From Allofournierella massiliensis (lineage in GTDB: Bacteria > Bacillota > Clostridia > Oscillospirales > Ruminococcaceae): a stretch of DNA of 58,499 nucleotides. The notes below the pieces were generated by a model. It did not search any database and had not been told where the DNA came from. It saw only the letters and a list, made by a program, of their open reading frames with translations. Shown piece by piece: positions 48,669 through 57,843 of the stretch; positions within the stretch are counted from its first letter, which is position 1; each line of letters begins with the position of its first letter. A program made the position numbers and the translations under genes. The stretch spans positions 1-58,499 of the forward strand of contig NZ_SLUM01000024.1 in the NCBI RefSeq assembly GCF_004345265.1. Direction: 5' to 3'.

Positions 48669-48721
48669 AGCAGGGAATCGCCGGGATCTTTTTCGCCCGG
48701 TTTTTGCAAGGAGGAACCAGA

Positions 48722-49144
48722 ATGTATTCATCCAAACAGATGATTGTGATGCGCCGGGATCTGAAGATGCGCAAGGGCAAAATTGCCGCCCAGGCGGGCC
48801 ATGCCTGCGTTACCGCCACCCTGATGGCGCTGCAGAAGGAGGGCCGTCTGGGGCAGATTCAGGTGACCGACGGCTGGGTGGGCCTGGCTGAGAGCAAACA
48901 GGAGGCTACCCCCCTGAGCGAGTGGTTCGACAGGGGAGTGGCCAAGATCTGTGTGTATGTGGATTCCGAGGAGGAGCTGCTGCAGCTGCACCGGAAAGCG
49001 CAGGACGCCGGGGTGATCAGCGCCCTGATTCAGGATGCGGGCATGACCGAATTCCACGGCGAGCCCACCTACACCTGCCTGGCACTGGAGCCGCTGGCGG
49101 CGGAAAAGGCCGACGAGTTCACCGGCGGCCTGCCGCTGTACTGA
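48722..49144 (+). CDS. pth2: Peptidyl-tRNA hydrolase, Pth2 (archaeal/eukaryal) type
   Basis: A protein of 140 residues. It carries the PTH2 signature: KQMIVMRRDLKMRKGKIAAQAGHACVTATLMAL, then GVAKICVYVDSEEELLQLHRKAQDAGVISALIQDAGMTEF and the C-terminal PTYTCLALEPLAAEKADEFTGGLPLY. It cleaves peptides from tRNA dropped off ribosomes. This form is standard in archaea and eukaryotes and sporadic in bacteria, which usually use the unrelated Pth1. Start ATG 48722 with AAGGAGG. Monogenic unit with its own promoter. Confidence 0.92.
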   Translation: MYSSKQMIVMRRDLKMRKGKIAAQAGHACVTATLMALQKEGRLGQIQVTDGWVGLAESKQEATPLSEWFDRGVAKICVYVDSEEELLQLHRKAQDAGVISALIQDAGMTEFHGEPTYTCLALEPLAAEKADEFTGGLPLY

Positions 49145-50475: not shown

Positions 50476-50516
50476 AGCAAAAAGCGGAGCAATATTCGTA
50501 AACGGGAGGAATGAAG

Positions 50517-50864
50517 ATGGAACCCAAGGATATGGGAGCAATGGATTCGACCTGGCTGCAGGCCATCCATCCCCGGGGCAGTGCCGCAGGCGAGGGCTGC
50601 GTAAAGGGGGCGTTTCAGTACAATGGAGGCCACGGGCTGACCACTTTTTTTGTGTATGTGGAGCTGGCCGAACCTCTTCGCCAGCAGCTGGCCGGCCAGG
50701 GGTTGGATCCGGTGGATACGGTGGCCTTCTGCCAACAGGCCGAGGGCGGCTGGGTGGCTGCCTTCAGCGACGAAGCCATGACAAAACGGCTGGATTTTTC
50801 TCTGGAAGAGGGCCAGATGCAGGCGCTGCTGGAGAAAAACGGCCTGCATCTTGTGCATGTATAA
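50517..50864 (+). CDS. Hypothetical protein, 115 residues
   Basis: The start at ATG 50517 (MEPKDMGAMDSTW) is preferred over ATG 50511 because GGGAGG ends only 1 bp before the latter. Soluble, acidic, with blocks GEGCVKGAFQYNGGHGLTTFFVYVELAEPL and WVAAFSDEAMTKRLDFSLEEGQMQALLEKNGLHLVHV. I recognise no family. It precedes the promoter of the structured RNA by about 80 bp with no obvious terminator between. Confidence 0.65.
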   Translation: MEPKDMGAMDSTWLQAIHPRGSAAGEGCVKGAFQYNGGHGLTTFFVYVELAEPLRQQLAGQGLDPVDTVAFCQQAEGGWVAAFSDEAMTKRLDFSLEEGQMQALLEKNGLHLVHV

Positions 50865-50945
50865 TTATTCCAAATGATGGAAAATCCCATGGAAAAAGCA
50901 GGGAAAAGCGGCCGTTAAAATTTTGCTAAAAACTGAAAAAAGCCG

Positions 50946-50975
50946 TTGACAAACGGCAAAAAAACAGGTTATACT
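50946..50975 (+). promoter_or_regulatory. Promoter of the structured RNA / polyamine leader
   Basis: TTGACA (50946-50951), then TTATAC/TATACT (50969-50975) at 17-18 bp spacing, with an A-rich spacer. The predicted start is near 50982, about 15 nt before the closing helix of the RNA. Confidence 0.85.
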
Positions 50976-50997
50976 TTTCCCGTCATGCGATATGAGT

Positions 50998-51238
50998 TTT
51001 CATACAGAGTATCCATGCAAATATTTCTTCTGACCACCCAATCGTGGGTTAAAGGCCATACGGACAGCCGGGTCAACTGCCGATGGGCGGTGCGATACCG
51101 CCATTATTGATTGAGTTAAAAGCTCAATTTTATAAGTTGGTTACTTTACAACCAGTGCGTATTCTGCGTACATCAACTTGTAAAACGGTCAATAAGAGTA
51201 GTAAAAGTAAGTATTTGCTATATAGACTCTGTGTGAAA
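50998..51238 (+). ncRNA. Large multibranched structured RNA upstream of the polyamine operon, class unresolved
   Basis: About 241 nt closed by long-range helices. P1 is 50998-51010 with 51226-51238, 13 bp with one G-U. P2 is 51017-51026 with 51209-51218, 10 bp with one G-U. P3 is 51031-51035 with 51187-51191. Inside are hairpins at 51036-51049 (ACCCA/TGGGT), 51086-51102 (GGCGGT/ACCGCC) and 51110-51128 (ATTGAG/CTCAAT), plus a branch 51129-51139/51174-51184 with further inner pairing at 51155-51171. Base composition (AT-rich, no ORF) differs from flanking genes. It could be a raiA-type or other large ncRNA (low confidence from memory), or a cis-regulator of speD. Not 6S, RNase P or tmRNA by its motifs. 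Confidence 0.8.
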
Positions 51239-51358
51239 GCAAGCCGGGCTGTGCCCTGAGCGGCGCTGTTTTGCCGTACCTCACTGTATCCATCCGGAAC
51301 TGTGTGCCGGTCTTTTTTCAGGGGGTTCCGCGCTTAATCACCAAAATAGGATTCGTTT
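51239..51358 (+). other. Linker between structured RNA and terminator
   Basis: No gene. Contains GC-rich segments able to pair locally (GCGGC/GCCG near 51260-51276, CCGG/CCGG near 51294-51310) and a T-run at 51312-51317 that could be an earlier, weak termination site for the RNA. No convincing second promoter for speD was found. Confidence 0.5.
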
Positions 51359-51401
51359 ACAGGCAATGTGTATGCAAAAGTACACATTGCCTGTTTTTTT
51401 G
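51359..51401 (+). terminator. Perfect intrinsic terminator just upstream of speD
   Basis: A perfect 14-bp stem (51359-51372 with 51381-51394) with an 8-base loop, then eight T. It lies 48 bp before the speD start codon and 120 bp after the RNA's closing helix. Confidence 0.95.
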
Positions 51402-51448
51402 TTGCCGCCGGGCCAAAAAAGGGCGATGTCAATTTCAGGAGGAGACCG

Positions 51449-52207
51449 ATGGGAGAAAAGCTGAAACTTTATGGGTTCAACAACCTGACCAAAGCGCTGA
51501 GCTTCAACATCTACGACGTGTGCTATGCAAAAACCGCCCGGGAACAGAAGGATTACATTGCCTACATCGATGAGCAGTATAACTCCGAGCGGCTTACCAA
51601 CATCCTCACCACTCTCACCGACATGATCGGCGCCAAGGTGCTGAACATCGCCCGGCAGGACTACGACCCCCAGGGCGCGTCGGTGACCATCCTCATTGCC
51701 GAGGGCAGCATGTTGCCGGCAGGCGAGACCCAGCTGGCCCATCTGGATAAAAGCCATGTGACGGTGCACACCTACCCGGAGTACCATCCGGAGACCTGCC
51801 TGGCCACCTTCCGGGTGGACATCGACGTGGCCACCTGCGGCGAGATTACCCCGCTGTCCACGCTGGATTACCTGATCCGCTCCTTCGATTCGGACATCAT
51901 CACCATGGACTACCGGGTGCGCGGTTTTACCCGGGACATGAACGGCCGCAAGCTGTTTCTGGATCACAAGGTCAACAGCATTCAGGACTACATCGAGCCC
52001 GAGCTGCTGCGCCGGTACGACGCGGTGGACATCAACGTTTACGACGCGAACATCTTCCACACCAAGATGATGCTCAAGGAAGTGGATCTGCAGAACTATC
52101 TGTTCAAAACCGATGTGTATGAGCTCCCGCCCAAAACCCGGCTGGAGATCATGAACAACCTGCGCCGCGAGATGATCGAGATCTTCAGCGGGCGCAATAT
52201 CTACTGA
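51449..52207 (+). CDS. speD: S-adenosylmethionine decarboxylase proenzyme, E. coli type
   Basis: A protein of 252 residues, the longer class 1A form. The self-cleavage site is [16 protein letters not shown], where Ser102 becomes the pyruvoyl cofactor; [24 protein letters not shown] and [10 protein letters not shown] follow as in E. coli SpeD. It makes decarboxylated AdoMet, the aminopropyl donor for spermidine synthase (speE, two genes on). Start ATG 51449 behind AGGAGGAG. First gene of the polyamine operon, separated from the leader RNA by a terminator. Confidence 0.96.
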
Positions 52208-52233: not shown

Positions 52234-53682
52234 ATGGAACATCTGGATCAGCAAAGGGCTCCCATCTACGAGGCACTGGAACGCTTCGGCAAGATGCGGG
52301 TGGTGCCCTTTGACGTGCCCGGGCACAAGCGCGGGCGAGGAAACCCGGAGCTGGTGGATCTGCTGGGCCAGCAGTGTGTGAGCATGGACGTGAACTCCAT
52401 GAAGCCGCTGGACAATCTGTGCCACCCGATCTCGGTAATCCGGGACGCGGAGATTCTGGCCGCGCAGGCCTTTGGGGCGGCTCACGCCTTTCTGATGGTG
52501 GGCGGCACCACCAGCGCGGTGCAGAGCATGATTCTGTCGGTGGCAAAGCGGGGCGAAAAGATCATCCTGCCCCGCAACGTGCACCGCAGCGTGATGGGCG
52601 CCATGGTGCTGTGCGGCGCCATTCCGGTGTATGTGAACCCGGAATGCGACCACCGACTGGGTATCCCGCTGGGCATGAGTGTTTTCGCGGTGGAAAAGGC
52701 CATCCGGGAAAATCCGGACGCCAAGGCCGTGCTGGTGAACAACCCCACCTACTACGGCATCTGTTCCGATCTGCGCAGCATCGTGAAGCTGGCGCATGAC
52801 AACGGTATGCTCTGCCTGGCCGACGAGGCCCACGGCACCCACTTCTATTTTGGCGAAAACCTGCCGGTTTCCGCCATGGCGGCGGGGGCGGATATGGCCG
52901 CCGTTTCCATGCACAAATCCGGCGGCAGCCTGACCCAGAGCTCGCTGCTGCTCACCGGCCCGGCCATGCCGGAGGGCCATGTGCGCCAGATCATCAACCT
53001 GACCCAGACCACCAGCGGCTCCTATCTGCTGCTGTCCAGCCTGGACATCTCCCGGCGGAATCTGGCGCTGCGGGGAAAACAGGAATTCCAGCGGGTGAGC
53101 GAGCTGGCGGAATACGCCCGCAGGGAGATCAACGCCATCGGCGGTTACTACGCCTTCTCCAAGGAGCTGTGCAACGGCGACAGCATCTTTGATTTTGATA
53201 CCACCAAGCTGTCGGTGAACACGCTGGATGTGGGTCTGGCCGGCATCGAGGTCTATGACCTGCTACGGGACGAATACGACATCCAGATCGAATTCGGCGA
53301 TCTGGGCAACATTCTGGCCTATCTGTCCATCGGTGACCGCCCCCGTGAGGTGGAGCGGCTGGTGAGCGCGCTGGCCGAGGTGCGCCGCCGGTTCGGCGGC
53401 AGCAAGGCGGGCCTGATGCAGCAGGAATACATCGACCCCATTGTGGCCGCTTCCCCGCAGGAAGCCTTCTATGCGGAGAAGGAGTCGCTGCCCATTGAGG
53501 ACACCGCGGGCCGCATCTGCAGCGAATTCGTGATGTGCTATCCTCCGGGAATTCCCATTCTGGCTCCCGGCGAGCGCATCACAAAGGAGATTCTGGACTA
53601 CATTCAGTATGCGAAGGCCAAGGGCTGCTCCATGACCGGCCCTGAGGATGCGGACATCCTGCGCCTGAACGTGCTCAAATAA
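52234..53682 (+). CDS. speA: Arginine decarboxylase, Orn/Lys/Arg decarboxylase fold-type I
   Basis: A protein of 482 residues, the short Bacillus SpeA-like form without the N-terminal wing domain. It has VPFDVPGHKRGRGNPEL, MVGGTTSAVQSMILS, VLVNNPTYYGICSDL, ADEAHGTHF and PLP-Lys228 in AAVSMHKSGGSLTQSS, ending with PPGIPILAPGERI. Agmatinase in the same operon argues for arginine as substrate rather than lysine or ornithine. It lies 26 bp after speD. Confidence 0.94.
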   Translation: MEHLDQQRAPIYEALERFGKMRVVPFDVPGHKRGRGNPELVDLLGQQCVSMDVNSMKPLDNLCHPISVIRDAEILAAQAFGAAHAFLMVGGTTSAVQSMILSVAKRGEKIILPRNVHRSVMGAMVLCGAIPVYVNPECDHRLGIPLGMSVFAVEKAIRENPDAKAVLVNNPTYYGICSDLRSIVKLAHDNGMLCLADEAHGTHFYFGENLPVSAMAAGADMAAVSMHKSGGSLTQSSLLLTGPAMPEGHVRQIINLTQTTSGSYLLLSSLDISRRNLALRGKQEFQRVSELAEYARREINAIGGYYAFSKELCNGDSIFDFDTTKLSVNTLDVGLAGIEVYDLLRDEYDIQIEFGDLGNILAYLSIGDRPREVERLVSALAEVRRRFGGSKAGLMQQEYIDPIVAASPQEAFYAEKESLPIEDTAGRICSEFVMCYPPGIPILAPGERITKEILDYIQYAKAKGCSMTGPEDADILRLNVLK

Positions 53683-53695
53683 GAAGGAGGAAGCG

Positions 53696-54556
53696 ATGGA
53701 TTTTTGGTTTTCCGAAGCGCAGACCCCGAACGTGAAGCTGTCCATCAAGGTGGACAAGCAGCTGTTCAGCGGCAAGAGCGAGTTCCAGCGCATCGATGTG
53801 TTTGAAGCGCCGGAGTTCGGCCGCTTTCTGACGCTGGACGGTTATATGATGCTCACCGAAAAGGATGAGTTCATCTACCACGAGATGATCACCCATGTGC
53901 CCATGGCGGTGCATCCGAAAGTGCGGGACGTGCTGGTCATCGGCGCGGGCGACGGCGGCGTGATCCGCGAGCTGACCCGCTACCCGGAGATTGAGCACAT
54001 CGACATGGTGGAGATCGACCCGCTGGTGGTGGAGGTGTGCAAGAAGTATCTGCCCCAGACCTCCTGCCGGCTGAACGATCCCCGCCTGACCATCCACTAT
54101 GAGGACGGTGTGCGGTTCATCCGCTCCTGCAAGGATCAGTATGACCTGATCATTGTAGATTCCACCGACCCCTTCGGCCCCGGCGAGGGTCTGTTCACCC
54201 GGGAGTTTTACGGCAGCTGCTACAACGCCCTGCGGGAGGACGGCATCATGGTCAACCAGCATGAGAGCCCCTTCTACACCGAGGACGCGGTGGCCTGCCA
54301 GCGGGCCCACAAGCGGATTGTGGAGTCCTTCCCCATCAGCCGGGTATACCAGGCGCACATCCCCACCTATCCCTCCGGGCACTGGCTGTTCGGCTTTGCC
54401 TCCAAAAAGTATCACCCGCTGCGGGATCTGGACGAAACCCGCTGGAACATGCGCGGGCTGACCTGCCGCTATTACACCACCACACTGCACAAGGGCGCGT
54501 TTTACCTGCCCGCATACGTAGAGGAGCTTTTAAGAGATGTTGAGCAAGAATGTTGA
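53696..54556 (+). CDS. speE: Spermidine synthase (aminopropyltransferase)
   Basis: A protein of 286 residues. N-terminal beta domain with FQRIDVFEAPEFGRFLTLDGYMMLTEKDEFIYHEM, then the Rossmann part VLVIGAGDGGVIRELTRYPEIEHIDMVEID, IIVDSTDPFGPGEGLF and the YPSGHWLFGFASK block. It transfers aminopropyl from decarboxylated AdoMet to putrescine. Overlaps speB by 20 bp. Confidence 0.95.
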   Translation: MDFWFSEAQTPNVKLSIKVDKQLFSGKSEFQRIDVFEAPEFGRFLTLDGYMMLTEKDEFIYHEMITHVPMAVHPKVRDVLVIGAGDGGVIRELTRYPEIEHIDMVEIDPLVVEVCKKYLPQTSCRLNDPRLTIHYEDGVRFIRSCKDQYDLIIVDSTDPFGPGEGLFTREFYGSCYNALREDGIMVNQHESPFYTEDAVACQRAHKRIVESFPISRVYQAHIPTYPSGHWLFGFASKKYHPLRDLDETRWNMRGLTCRYYTTTLHKGAFYLPAYVEELLRDVEQEC

Positions 54557-55391
54557 GGTTTTCATGGGGTGCGACAAGGGCCCCCGTTTCGCGTCCACCA
54601 TGCTGTTCGGCGCACCCTTTGATTCCACCACCTCCTACCGGCCGGGTACCCGGTTCGGAAGCGCGGCCATCCGCCACGAGTCCTATGGTATCGAAAGCTA
54701 CAGCCCCTATCAGGACAAGGATCTGGAGGATGCCAATGTGATCGATCTGGGCGACCTGGAGCTGTGCTTCGGCGACGTGAACAAGGCGCTGGATCGCATC
54801 GAGGAGCGCACCCGCCACGTTCTGCACGCCAGCAAGCGGCCCTTCATGCTGGGCGGCGAGCATCTGGTAACGCTGGGCGCCTTCCGTGCGGTGGCCGATA
54901 TGTACCCGGATGTGCACATCATCCACTTTGACGCCCATGCCGATTTGCGGGACGATTATCTGGGGGCCAAGCTCTCCCATGCCTGCGTGCTGCGCCGCTG
55001 CTGGGAGCTGGTGGGCGACGGCCGCATTCACCAGTTCGGCATCCGCTCCGGCGACCGGGAGGAGTTTGCCTGGGGCCGTACCCATGTGAGCACCCGTCGG
55101 TTTGATTTCGAGGGCCTGGAAGAGACCCTGAACCAGCTGGAGGGCAAACCGGTCTACTTCACTGTGGATCTGGATGTAATGGATCCCTCCATCTTCCCCG
55201 GCACCGGCACCCCCGAGCCCGGCGGCGTAACCTTTGACGCACTGCGTCAGGCCGTGACGCTGGTGTGCAGCCGGGCCAAGGTGGTGGGCTGCGACGTGAA
55301 CGAGCTGAGCCCCCACTACGACCAGAGCGGCGTGTCCACCATCGTGGCCTGCAAGATCGTGCGGGAGATGCTGCTGGCTCTGCAGCCCTGA
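54537..55391 (+). CDS. speB: Agmatinase (ureohydrolase)
   Basis: A protein of 284 residues. Binuclear Mn2+ motifs are complete: GGEHLVTLG, FDAHADLRDDY, and VDLDVMDPSIFPGTGTPEPGG. It hydrolyses agmatine to putrescine and urea, completing the route begun by SpeA. Its start lies inside the speE coding end, implying coupled translation. Confidence 0.95.
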   Translation: MLSKNVEVFMGCDKGPRFASTMLFGAPFDSTTSYRPGTRFGSAAIRHESYGIESYSPYQDKDLEDANVIDLGDLELCFGDVNKALDRIEERTRHVLHASKRPFMLGGEHLVTLGAFRAVADMYPDVHIIHFDAHADLRDDYLGAKLSHACVLRRCWELVGDGRIHQFGIRSGDREEFAWGRTHVSTRRFDFEGLEETLNQLEGKPVYFTVDLDVMDPSIFPGTGTPEPGGVTFDALRQAVTLVCSRAKVVGCDVNELSPHYDQSGVSTIVACKIVREMLLALQP

Positions 55392-55459: not shown

Positions 55460-56719
55460 ATGAGCAAGGTATTGATCATCGGCTGCGGCGGCGTTGCCGG
55501 CGTTGCCATCCACAAGTGCTGCCAGAACAGCGAAGTATTCGCCGAGATCTGCATCGCCAGCCGCACCAAGTCCAAGTGCGACGACCTGAAGGCCAAGCTG
55601 GAGGGCACCACCTCCACCAAGATCACCACCGCTCAGGTGGACGCGGACGACGTGAACCAGCTGATCGCCCTGATCAAGGAGGTTCAGCCCGATCTGGTGA
55701 TGAACATCGCCCTGCCTTATCAGGATCTGACCATCATGGATGCCTGCCTGGCCTGCGGCGTGAACTACATGGATACCGCCAACTACGAGCCCGAGAATCT
55801 GGACGATCCCGAGTGGAAGGCTGCCTACGAGAAGCGCTGCAAGGAAGAGGGCTTCTCCGCCTACTTCGACTACTCCTGGCAGTGGGCCTACAAGGAGAAG
55901 TTCGAGAAGGCCGGCCTCACCGCCCTGCTGGGCTCCGGCTTTGACCCGGGTGTGACCCAGGCCTACTGCGCATGGGCCCAGAAGCACCTGTTCGACACCA
56001 TCGACACCATCGATATTCTGGACTGCAACGGCGGCGACCATGGCTATCCCTTCGCCACCAACTTCAACCCGGAGATCAATCTGCGCGAGGTGTCCGCCCC
56101 CGGCTCCTACTGGGAGAACGGCCACTGGGTGGAGATTCCCGCCATGAGCATCAAGCGGGAGTACAACTTTGATCAGGTGGGCCAGAAGGACATGTACCTG
56201 CTGCACCACGAGGAGATCGAGTCTCTGGCCAAGAATATCCCGAACGTGAAGCGCATCCGCTTCTTCATGACCTTCGGCCAGAGCTACCTGACCCACATGA
56301 AGTGTCTGGAGAACGTGGGCATGCTGTCCACCACGCCCATTGAGTTTGAGGGCCACGAGATCGTGCCCATTCAGTTCCTGAAGGCCCTGCTGCCCGATCC
56401 CGCCACCCTGGGCCCCCGCACCAAGGGCAAGACCAACATCGGCTGCATCTTCACCGGCAAGAAGGACGGTCAGGACAAGACTGCCTATATCTATAATGTG
56501 TGCGACCACGAGGAGTGCTACAAGGAGGTTGGCTCTCAGGCCATCTCCTACACCACCGGCGTGCCCGCCATGATCGGCGCCATGATGCTGCTCACCGGCA
56601 AGTGGAACAAGCCCGGCGTATACACCGTGGAGGAGTTCGATCCGGACCCGTACATGGACGCCCTGAACAAGTGGGGTCTGCCCTGGCAGGTCAACGATAA
56701 CCCGGAGCTGGTGGACTGA
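55460..56719 (+). CDS. Carboxyspermidine dehydrogenase (saccharopine-dehydrogenase family)
   Basis: A protein of 419 residues. Rossmann start MSKVLIIGCGGVAGVAIHKCCQN, then NIALPYQDLTIMDACLACGVNYMDTANYE and GSGFDPGVTQAYCAWAQKHLFD, all typical of the CASDH/CANSDH branch rather than true lysine-pathway saccharopine dehydrogenases. It reductively condenses aspartate semialdehyde with putrescine to carboxyspermidine. The identity is reinforced by nspC starting on its stop codon (TGATG). 68 bp follow speB. Confidence 0.93.
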   Translation: MSKVLIIGCGGVAGVAIHKCCQNSEVFAEICIASRTKSKCDDLKAKLEGTTSTKITTAQVDADDVNQLIALIKEVQPDLVMNIALPYQDLTIMDACLACGVNYMDTANYEPENLDDPEWKAAYEKRCKEEGFSAYFDYSWQWAYKEKFEKAGLTALLGSGFDPGVTQAYCAWAQKHLFDTIDTIDILDCNGGDHGYPFATNFNPEINLREVSAPGSYWENGHWVEIPAMSIKREYNFDQVGQKDMYLLHHEEIESLAKNIPNVKRIRFFMTFGQSYLTHMKCLENVGMLSTTPIEFEGHEIVPIQFLKALLPDPATLGPRTKGKTNIGCIFTGKKDGQDKTAYIYNVCDHEECYKEVGSQAISYTTGVPAMIGAMMLLTGKWNKPGVYTVEEFDPDPYMDALNKWGLPWQVNDNPELVD

Positions 56720-57843
56720 TGAGCAACGCCATTTCCACACCCTATTTTCTGGTGGATGAAACCCGCCTGGTGCAGAATCTGGAAATTCTGCGCCAGGTGG
56801 CCGACCAGGCGGGCTGCAAGATTCTGCTGGCCCAGAAGGCATTTTCCATGTTTTCCTGCTATCCGCTGCTGCGCCGCTATCTGGTGGGCAGCACCGCCAG
56901 CGGTCTGTACGAGGCCCGGCTGGGCAGGGAGCATTTCGGCGGCGAGACCCATGTGTTTTCTCCGGCCTACAAGCCGGAAGAATTTGAAGAGCTGCTGAGC
57001 TACGCCGACCATTTTGTGTTCAATTCGCCCCGCCAGCTGCAAAAGTTCGGCCCGGTGGCCAAGGCGGCGGGCAAGGCGGTGGGCCTGCGGGTGAACCCGG
57101 AGTGCTCCACTCAGGAGGGCCACGCCATCTATGACCCCTGCGCCCCCGGCTCCCGGTTGGGCACCACGCTGGCCAACTTCGACGAGAGCCTGCTGCCCCT
57201 GCTGGACGGCCTGCACTTCCACACCCTGTGCGAGCAGAACTCGGACGATCTGGAAACCACCGTGGCTGCCTTTGAGGAGAAGTTCGGTAAGTATCTGCAC
57301 GGATTGAAATGGATCAATCTGGGCGGCGGCCACCACATCACCCGCAAGGACTACGACCGCCAGCGTCTGGTGCGCATTGTGAAGCACCTGAAGGAAACCT
57401 ATCAGGTGGAGGTCTATCTGGAGCCGGGCGAAGCCGTGGTGCTGAACGCCGGTTTTCTGGTGACCAGTGTGCTGGAGACCCTGCACAACGGCATGGACAT
57501 TGCCATTCTGGACACCTCCGCCGCCTGCCACATGCCGGACGTGCTGGAGATGCCCTACCGCCCGCCGCTGCAGAATTCCGGCGAGAGCGGGGAAAAGGCC
57601 TACACCTACCGGCTGGGCGGCCCCACCTGTCTGGCGGGGGACGTGATCGGGGATTACTCCTTCGACGCACCTCTGAACGAGGGCGACCGGCTGGTGTTTG
57701 AGGATATGGCCCTTTACACCATGGTCAAAACCAACACCTTCAACGGCATGCCCCTGCCTGCCATCGTCTGGCGGGACGCAAACGGGCAGGAGAAGCTGGT
57801 AAAAGCTTTTGGTTATGAGGACTTCAAAAACCGCCTTTCCTGA
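56719..57843 (+). CDS. nspC: Carboxyspermidine/carboxynorspermidine decarboxylase
   Basis: A protein of 374 residues, alanine-racemase-fold PLP enzyme. PLP-Lys40 in ILLAQKAFSMF, GLRVNPECSTQEGHAIYDPCAPGSRLG, GLHFHTLCEQNSDDLE, INLGGGHHITRKDYD and the EPGEAVV phosphate site are present. It decarboxylates carboxyspermidine to spermidine. Last gene of the operon, overlapping its partner dehydrogenase by one base. Together they form a complete second spermidine route independent of SpeD/SpeE. Confidence 0.95.
   Translation: MSNAISTPYFLVDETRLVQNLEILRQVADQAGCKILLAQKAFSMFSCYPLLRRYLVGSTASGLYEARLGREHFGGETHVFSPAYKPEEFEELLSYADHFVFNSPRQLQKFGPVAKAAGKAVGLRVNPECSTQEGHAIYDPCAPGSRLGTTLANFDESLLPLLDGLHFHTLCEQNSDDLETTVAAFEEKFGKYLHGLKWINLGGGHHITRKDYDRQRLVRIVKHLKETYQVEVYLEPGEAVVLNAGFLVTSVLETLHNGMDIAILDTSAACHMPDVLEMPYRPPLQNSGESGEKAYTYRLGGPTCLAGDVIGDYSFDAPLNEGDRLVFEDMALYTMVKTNTFNGMPLPAIVWRDANGQEKLVKAFGYEDFKNRLS

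Follow-up and report, generated by a model that had tools for sequence, protein, structure and literature searches.

A large conserved leader RNA ahead of polyamine genes in Bacillota is a probable transcription-terminating polyamine riboswitch

The window, by which we denote the whole analysed stretch of 58,499 nucleotides from Allofournierella massiliensis, contains a run of polyamine genes preceded by a promoter, a leader RNA and an intrinsic terminator. The ATG of speD, at 51449, lies downstream of all these elements, and the genome to which the window belongs holds one copy of the RNA. The features of the locus are as follows.

50946..50975, + strand: sigma-70-type promoter, TTGACA-N18-TATACT, 11 of 12 consensus matches
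50982..51400, + strand: leader RNA of about 419 nt, start inferred, ending with the T run of the terminator (sequence; fold z -6.15)
51359..51400, + strand: intrinsic terminator (hairpin 51359-51394, 15 pairs), then a T run
51449..52207, + strand: speD, adenosylmethionine decarboxylase (TIGR03331, 401 bits, above cut-off)
52234..53682, + strand: Orn/Lys/Arg decarboxylase family enzyme (PF01276, E 9.1e-65)
53696..54556, + strand: speE, spermidine synthase (TIGR00417, above cut-off)
54537..55391, + strand: speB, agmatinase (TIGR01230, above cut-off)
55460..56719, + strand: carboxynorspermidine-synthase-like dehydrogenase, SDH (NF043000, E 2e-125; 419 bits, below the cut-off of 800)
56719..57843, + strand: nspC, carboxynorspermidine decarboxylase (TIGR01047, above cut-off)

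On a Gemmiger contig (L075) speD is 99% identical and the decarboxylase 97% identical to those of the window. Directly upstream of the promoter, positions 50514-50864 hold an open reading frame of 116 amino acids with no Pfam or NCBIfam match, which has 73-76% identical counterparts in two loci of the same genus (L015 and L030). Positions 48704-49144 encode a peptidyl-tRNA hydrolase of the PTH2 type (PF01981), a type that is mostly archaeal and eukaryotic.

The earlier note on this DNA had pointed out a consensus-like promoter and had seen none between the terminator and speD. Both observations were borne out: the promoter deviates from the consensus at a single position, and no promoter-like site at or above the scan cut-off lies in 51240-51448. 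The start of the leader was placed at 50982, about 7 nt downstream of the -10 box. For the region 50982-51410 the folding energy is -150.1 kcal/mol, where shuffled sequences average -116.1 (z -6.15), with none of 100 shuffles as good. Promoters scoring at least 10 of 12 recur ahead of the RNA in relatives, in 87 of 159 loci compared with 42 of 1590 shuffles.

The only gathering-level Rfam match in the whole window is to RF02440 (SpF59_sRNA), at 51031-51083, covering model positions 1-54 with 66.5 bits against a gathering cut-off of 37.2. The RF02440 model is 54 nt long, covers the P3 region alone and is filed as an sRNA. No match to raiA, 6S, T-box or SAM families was found in the window at gathering level or in 50900-51460 at E values up to 5, and 15 further loci were likewise free of gathering-level matches to any Rfam SAM family. 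Matches to ZFAT-AS1_3, SorX and TB6Cs1H1 scored far under their gathering thresholds and were judged to be due to chance.

As a whole, the element spans about 250 nt, well beyond the 54-nt Rfam model. Its structure was assessed on three alignments: A2, a plain, unfitted MAFFT alignment of 34 sequences scored over 60 pairs in ten helices; A3, of 96 distinct sequences; and A4, of 36 divergent ones, the last two being fitted to the model and leaning towards the structure. The long-range helices P1 and P2 were assessed separately from the alignments, in a strand-swap test on 87 of 130 loci. The resulting domain comprises the following elements.

50984..51017, + strand: possible hairpin P0, with the P1 5' strand in its loop (pseudoknot; by eye)
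50998..51010 with 51226..51238, + strand: P1, 13 bp (fold; strand-swap test in relatives)
51017..51025 with 51210..51218, + strand: P2, 9 bp (strand-swap test in relatives)
51031..51083, + strand: P3a, P3b, P3c and GCCGA, the core matched by RF02440 (66.5 bits)
51086..51102, + strand: P4 hairpin (two-sided changes in 6 of 6 pairs)
51105..51194, + strand: P6 (51105-51111/51188-51194), enclosing P5, P7, P8 and P9 (alignments)
51113..51125, + strand: P5 hairpin (two-sided changes in 4 of 5 pairs in A2, 5 of 5 in A3)
51129..51184, + strand: P7 (51129-51138/51175-51184; alignments; only one-sided changes in A2)
51139..51142 with 51150..51153, + strand: P8, inside P7 (alignments)
51155..51161 with 51165..51171, + strand: P9, inside P7 (alignments)

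The ten helices of the domain covary. In A2, 89.5% of cells pair and two-sided changes occur in 27 of the 60 pairs against 16.9 in shuffles (0 of 500 shuffles reach the observed value), and all slid versions of the structure score far lower. Two-sided changes are seen in 34 of 58 pairs in A3 and in 44 of 58 in A4, both model-fitted. The evidence is distributed unevenly among the helices. At the outermost position of P3a, 17 of the 34 sequences of A2 have a UA pair, 11 have GC and 4 have CG; P3c is invariant in A2 and shows two-sided changes in all three of its pairs in A4. P6, with 99.6% of its cells paired, has no two-sided changes in A2 and has them in 3 of 7 pairs in A4, while the corresponding figures for P7 are none and 4 of 10. 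P9 is poorly aligned in A2, where 50% of its cells pair, compared with 71% in A3 and 81% in A4. Among 38 aligned sequences, 66 positions are invariant. The 5' leader thus contains what is expected of the sensing part of a riboswitch: a structured domain that is conserved and supported by covariation. The covariance model made in this analysis (R2, 205 positions) replaced an earlier structure model (R1), built on A2, in which P3b and P4 were one column off; the error was exposed by the +1 slide.

The two long-range helices noticed earlier are both present. P1 has the 13 bp originally described, extending to 15 bp in the free-energy fold, and at 72 of the 87 loci its own pairs do better than the mean of swapped ones. 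The second helix, P2, stands at 9 bp in the model instead of 10, and its own pairs do so in 74 of 87; for either helix, none of 5000 permutations reaches the observed sum. The P0 pseudoknot was spotted by eye in several loci and is suggestive only: a swap test with crude segment borders favours it weakly, with 67 of 117 loci better and 27 of 5000 permutations reaching the observed sum.

Several smaller features of the domain were recorded. At the base of P7 (51127/51186) the loci alternate between A.C (83 of 115) and G.U (23 of 115), which are isosteric wobble pairs; standard pair counts give no credit for this alternation. The stretch AGAGU occurs both at 51195-51199 and at 51006-51010, each complementary to ACUCU at 51226-51230 in the P1 3' strand, and judging by this complementarity the duplicate stretches could permit a second switch. 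Within the core, CGG at 51061-51063 is complementary to CCG at 51080-51082. In six loci (L059, L085, L089, L120, L155 and L164) the spacing from the core to AATAAGAGTAGTAAA is 168-291 nt, against mostly about 130-155 elsewhere, and these insertions in the domain suggest that peripheral extension is tolerated.

The terminator had been described as a perfect 14-bp hairpin with eight T. The terminator stands, with corrected counts: it has 15 pairs, and the T run numbers seven (51394-51400), the first of which is able to pair. Terminators of -9 kcal/mol or better follow the RNA in 116 of 137 relatives against 46 of 685 shuffles, and those of -15 kcal/mol or better in 99 of 137 against 3 of 685. 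In most of the 21 loci missed by the terminator finder, visual inspection shows hairpins that resemble terminators and have larger loops or bulges.

The earlier note had seen no obvious antiterminator. A 16-bp pairing was nonetheless found between the following segments.

51166..51184, + strand: switching strand, the 3' halves of P9 and P7, pairing with 51356-51375
51356..51375, + strand: antiterminator partner, overlapping the terminator 5' arm, pairing with 51166-51184

The antiterminator is made up of 8 bp (51166-51173/51368-51375), an internal loop, and a further 8 bp (51177-51184/51356-51363). In the window the switching strand CUUGUAAA is opposed by the arm UUUACAGG; the corresponding strand and terminator arm are CAUCAACUUGUG and CACAAGUGAUG in L038, and CACAGACUUGUG and CGCAAGCUGUG in L004. 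Among 83 non-redundant loci taken from 116, the mean duplex energy is -16.87 kcal/mol for a locus's own partner, -14.01 for swapped partners and -9.88 for its own arm shuffled. The own pairing beats the swapped mean in 65 of the 83 loci, being no better than the mean of swapped terminators in the remaining 18, and none of 10,000 permutations reaches the observed sum.

P7/P9 and the antiterminator require the same strand, and the terminator and the antiterminator require the same arm; therefore, the two states are mutually exclusive. The leader accordingly possesses a computed expression platform with mutually exclusive structures, whose switching is energetically unfavourable when unassisted. 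Local energies in the window are nearly equal, at -17.1 kcal/mol for the P7-P9 subdomain and -18.2 for the antiterminator duplex. For the leader up to 51379 in a ligand-free model, the antiterminator state has -110.4 kcal/mol against -127.6 for the free fold, and is thus 17 kcal/mol less stable; in nested folding the antiterminator additionally disrupts P1, P2 and P6. With this gap, termination would be the default outcome, unless folding is kinetic, pseudoknotted with the domain partly kept, or assisted by a factor.

Relatives of the RNA were gathered by the RNA sequence alone, never by the neighbouring gene. Of 197 genomes in the window's family, 49 carry RF02440, as do 18 of 398 in the phylum; R2 has matches in 25 of the 398 phylum genomes and in 45 of 117 genomes in the family of Lactococcus sp. 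dk101 (genome G593). A scan of named genomes for the core pattern returned at least 118 loci, and in two further scans, which excluded repeat fetches and loci with the RNA running off the end, a match was present in every one of 100 and of 80 source sequences. Among the matches listed are Paenibacillus, Bacillus, Neobacillus, Kurthia and Lactococcus, as well as Acidaminococcus, Phascolarctobacterium, Blautia, Faecalibacterium and Gemmiger. The RNA also occurs in one Spirochaetes bin and one Synergistaceae bin, where binning errors are possible. Phages gave no match, the exact core pattern was absent from viral contigs, and the single plasmid match lies on a 2.7 Mb Paenibacillus replicon; a mobile or phage origin was rejected on these grounds. 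The RNA is not obligatory for speD, since 50 of the 81 SpeD-bearing genomes of the family lack an RF02440 match, which is found in the other 31.

The genes downstream of the RNA show a near-constant link to polyamine metabolism. For each locus we took the nearest match on the same strand, within 1.7 kb, to a polyamine protein set. Removal of 31 loci sharing an identical 110-nt stretch from the initial 207 left 176, nine of which have less than 600 nt downstream. Of the resulting 167 distinct loci, 166 precede a polyamine gene: speD in 55, a decarboxylase in 48, potA in 47 and an SDH-like dehydrogenase in 16. With looser removal of duplicates, where only identical RNA stretches were dropped and near-copies kept, the count is 188 of 189. 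Repeat fetches (L167-L182, L184, L186 and L192-L198), a locus at a contig end (L232) and L233 stand outside both censuses, and L233 has a decarboxylase match all the same. The sole census locus without a polyamine gene is L204, where a short open reading frame at 1889-2425, downstream of the RNA, resembles by eye an IS200-type transposase. The potA of L053 scores above the cut-off for the NCBIfam spermidine/putrescine ABC transporter ATPase, and potA at other loci was assigned by similarity to it.

Wherever a genome of the family carries both the RNA and speD (31 genomes), they share a contig and a strand, with the RNA leading at a distance of 271-610 nt, and all seven phylum loci matched by R2 and not by RF02440 (scoring down to 25 bits) stand ahead of speD or a decarboxylase. 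A same-strand open reading frame of at least 80 amino acids separates the RNA from the matched gene at two loci only, L031 and L122. That of L122, 132 amino acids long and located ahead of potA, 197-596 nt past the start of the RNA core and on its strand, looks by eye like a PII/GlnB-type protein and could be a nitrogen-signalling component of the operon. Three genomes contain two copies of the RNA, one ahead of potA and one ahead of a decarboxylase: Lactococcus sp. dk101 (L195 and L199), G658 (L229 and L206, on the same contig) and G664 (L231 and L230, on two contigs of a draft). The association of the RNA with polyamine synthesis or import genes at 166 of 167 loci points to one metabolite, as that of a riboswitch does. 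Control of import and synthesis by one RNA is the usual mark of a riboswitch for an end product.

The best reading of the RNA is that it is probably an OFF riboswitch that terminates transcription in response to a polyamine, most plausibly spermidine. Transcription would begin near 50982, and the nascent RNA would form the large, very conserved domain P1-P9 (50998-51238). When the polyamine is plentiful, the ligand is predicted to stabilise the domain and to keep the P7/P9 3' strand, 51166-51184, locked; the terminator at 51359-51400 would then form, leaving speD and the later genes untranscribed. When it is scarce, 51166-51184 would pair with the terminator 5' arm, 51356-51375, and the antiterminator so formed would block the terminator and allow the operon to be transcribed. 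Cis-acting attenuation as such, which the earlier note had offered as one of two readings, is very likely, given the census, the two-copy genomes, the enrichment of promoters and terminators and the covarying antiterminator. The computed support covers fold and covariation, promoter, terminator and antiterminator in relatives, and the near-constant polyamine gene link; from these we infer the direct sensing of a small molecule, its identity as spermidine and the OFF direction. That a polyamine is sensed directly appears likely. The speD/speE route, the SDH-nspC route and import by PotABC(D) have spermidine as their common product, which makes it the best guess for the ligand; we favour spermidine in particular by somewhat more than an even chance, and putrescine or another polyamine is possible.

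A different molecule, S-adenosylmethionine or its decarboxylated form, might be sensed by the same device. The former had been named alongside polyamines as a candidate ligand; it is consumed by speD, and a known spermidine riboswitch is a SAM-I variant (PMC10853860). It fits poorly, since neither potABC import nor the SDH-nspC route uses it: 47 of the 167 loci precede potA and 16 the SDH gene, and Rfam SAM models find nothing in the window, nor do they reach gathering level in the 15 further loci. The polyamine half of the original suggestion is retained, and a riboswitch for either SAM compound appears most improbable. The possibility of an independent small RNA acting in trans, and ended by the terminator by chance, draws on the filing of RF02440 as an sRNA and on the pneumococcal RNA, which is listed as a discrete transcript with a length of 318 nt or, from the coordinates, 327 nt. 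An attenuated leader would likewise appear as a discrete short RNA. The near-constant position before polyamine genes (166 of 167 loci), the pairing of RNAs with different polyamine genes in two-copy genomes, the covariation of the antiterminator and the lack of a promoter-like site past the domain in the window all argue against a trans-acting RNA, which we regard as very unlikely. The earlier note would have abandoned the cis-acting interpretation if Rfam had matched a family that acts in trans and neighbours unrelated genes; the family matched is indeed labelled an sRNA, yet it lies beside polyamine genes, and the alternative of an independent non-coding RNA is weakened accordingly.

A less remote alternative is a protein-dependent attenuator, in which a regulatory protein, perhaps polyamine-loaded, binds the RNA, stabilises its fold and lets the terminator form. 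Such an attenuator would yield the same anatomy of covariation, antiterminator and terminators, and the unassisted gap of 17 kcal/mol is compatible with a helper. The 66 invariant positions among 38 sequences, the multi-helix fold and the occurrence in distant lineages are better suited to a small-molecule aptamer, and we consider protein dependence unlikely, while giving it, and the possibility of another macromolecular ligand, some weight.

A counterpart of the probable polyamine riboswitch is known from pneumococcus, where RF02440 (SpF59_sRNA, ldcC RNA) goes by the names F59, SN20, srn235 and Spd_sr49 and sits in the SP0915-SP0916 interval, on the same strand as SP0916, an arginine decarboxylase gene (PMC7531197). 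Its published sizes there are 327 nt from coordinates 869478-869804, 318 nt, and 82 nt for F59. The literature also offers a guess that SN20 is an FMN switch (PMC2887815) and an entry for F59 with 'Lung' in a review's virulence table; this entry and the 'sRNA' label leave room for an additional role in trans. Five loci in the Lactococcus sp. dk101 family have a decarboxylase downstream (L214, L221, L222, L225 and L226, several being near-copies of each other), and in them the inferred start and the terminator end are 326-330 nt apart. The start of the L214 decarboxylase gene agrees by eye with the SP_0916 primer given in PMC7531197 except for one base, which makes these loci near relatives of the pneumococcal locus. 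As their leaders are close in length to the published 327 nt, the 327-nt pneumococcal RNA is probably the attenuated leader. RF02440 does not reach an E value of 0.01 on L214 and L221, where R2 scores 69 bits. F59 shares with the window the RNA core, judged by the RF02440 score, and the position before a polyamine gene; leader lengths were compared through relatives of its locus.

The closest proven case is the spermidine riboswitch that is a SAM-I variant (Salvail et al. 2023, PMC10853860), a terminating OFF switch in spe and ldcC leaders. It resembles the window RNA in leader position, termination and the OFF mode proposed here. In contrast, it has a SAM-I aptamer and involves a P1 strand in switching, whereas the window RNA matches no Rfam SAM family, is larger and has its switching strand inside the domain (P7/P9). 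Other candidates can be likened to the window RNA by their published descriptions only: the predicted attenuator ahead of potABCD in Gammaproteobacteria, the ABC-leader, from Haemophilus somnus and Pasteurella multocida (Naville and Gautheret 2010, PMC2965389), and the potE and odc1 motifs, candidate RNAs ahead of polyamine-linked genes (RNA Biol 2021, PMC8632094), of which potE occurs only in Veillonella and in environmental samples, while odc1 is a uORF-type element confined to alphaproteobacteria. In the open PMC literature, which leaves supplements and most subscription papers outside, we found no polyamine-regulator role for this RNA and one natural class of spermidine riboswitch, the rare SAM-I variant.

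Databases already contain the RNA, in the form of a 54-nt piece of a 'small RNA'; what appears to be new, within the searched literature, is how far it extends, its structure and platform, the range of genes it precedes and its probable role. On balance it seems probable that it represents a widespread class of large polyamine riboswitches that had gone unrecognised, of about 250 nt, unrelated to SAM-I and Bacillota-wide, which would govern spermidine synthesis and import by termination, switching internally (P7/P9) and not through P1. If so, RNA-based sensing of polyamines would be widespread and extend over both synthesis and uptake, from gut Clostridia to Bacilli, Lactococcus and relatives of Streptococcus, and a known 'sRNA' would be reassigned. 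The domain, the switching strand, the terminator and the compensatory changes taken from relatives together provide a ready construct for a direct test. At one of the loci (L032), the opposite strand carries a c-di-GMP-I riboswitch (2514-2605, 78.4 bits), separated from the polyamine RNA by about 1 kb.
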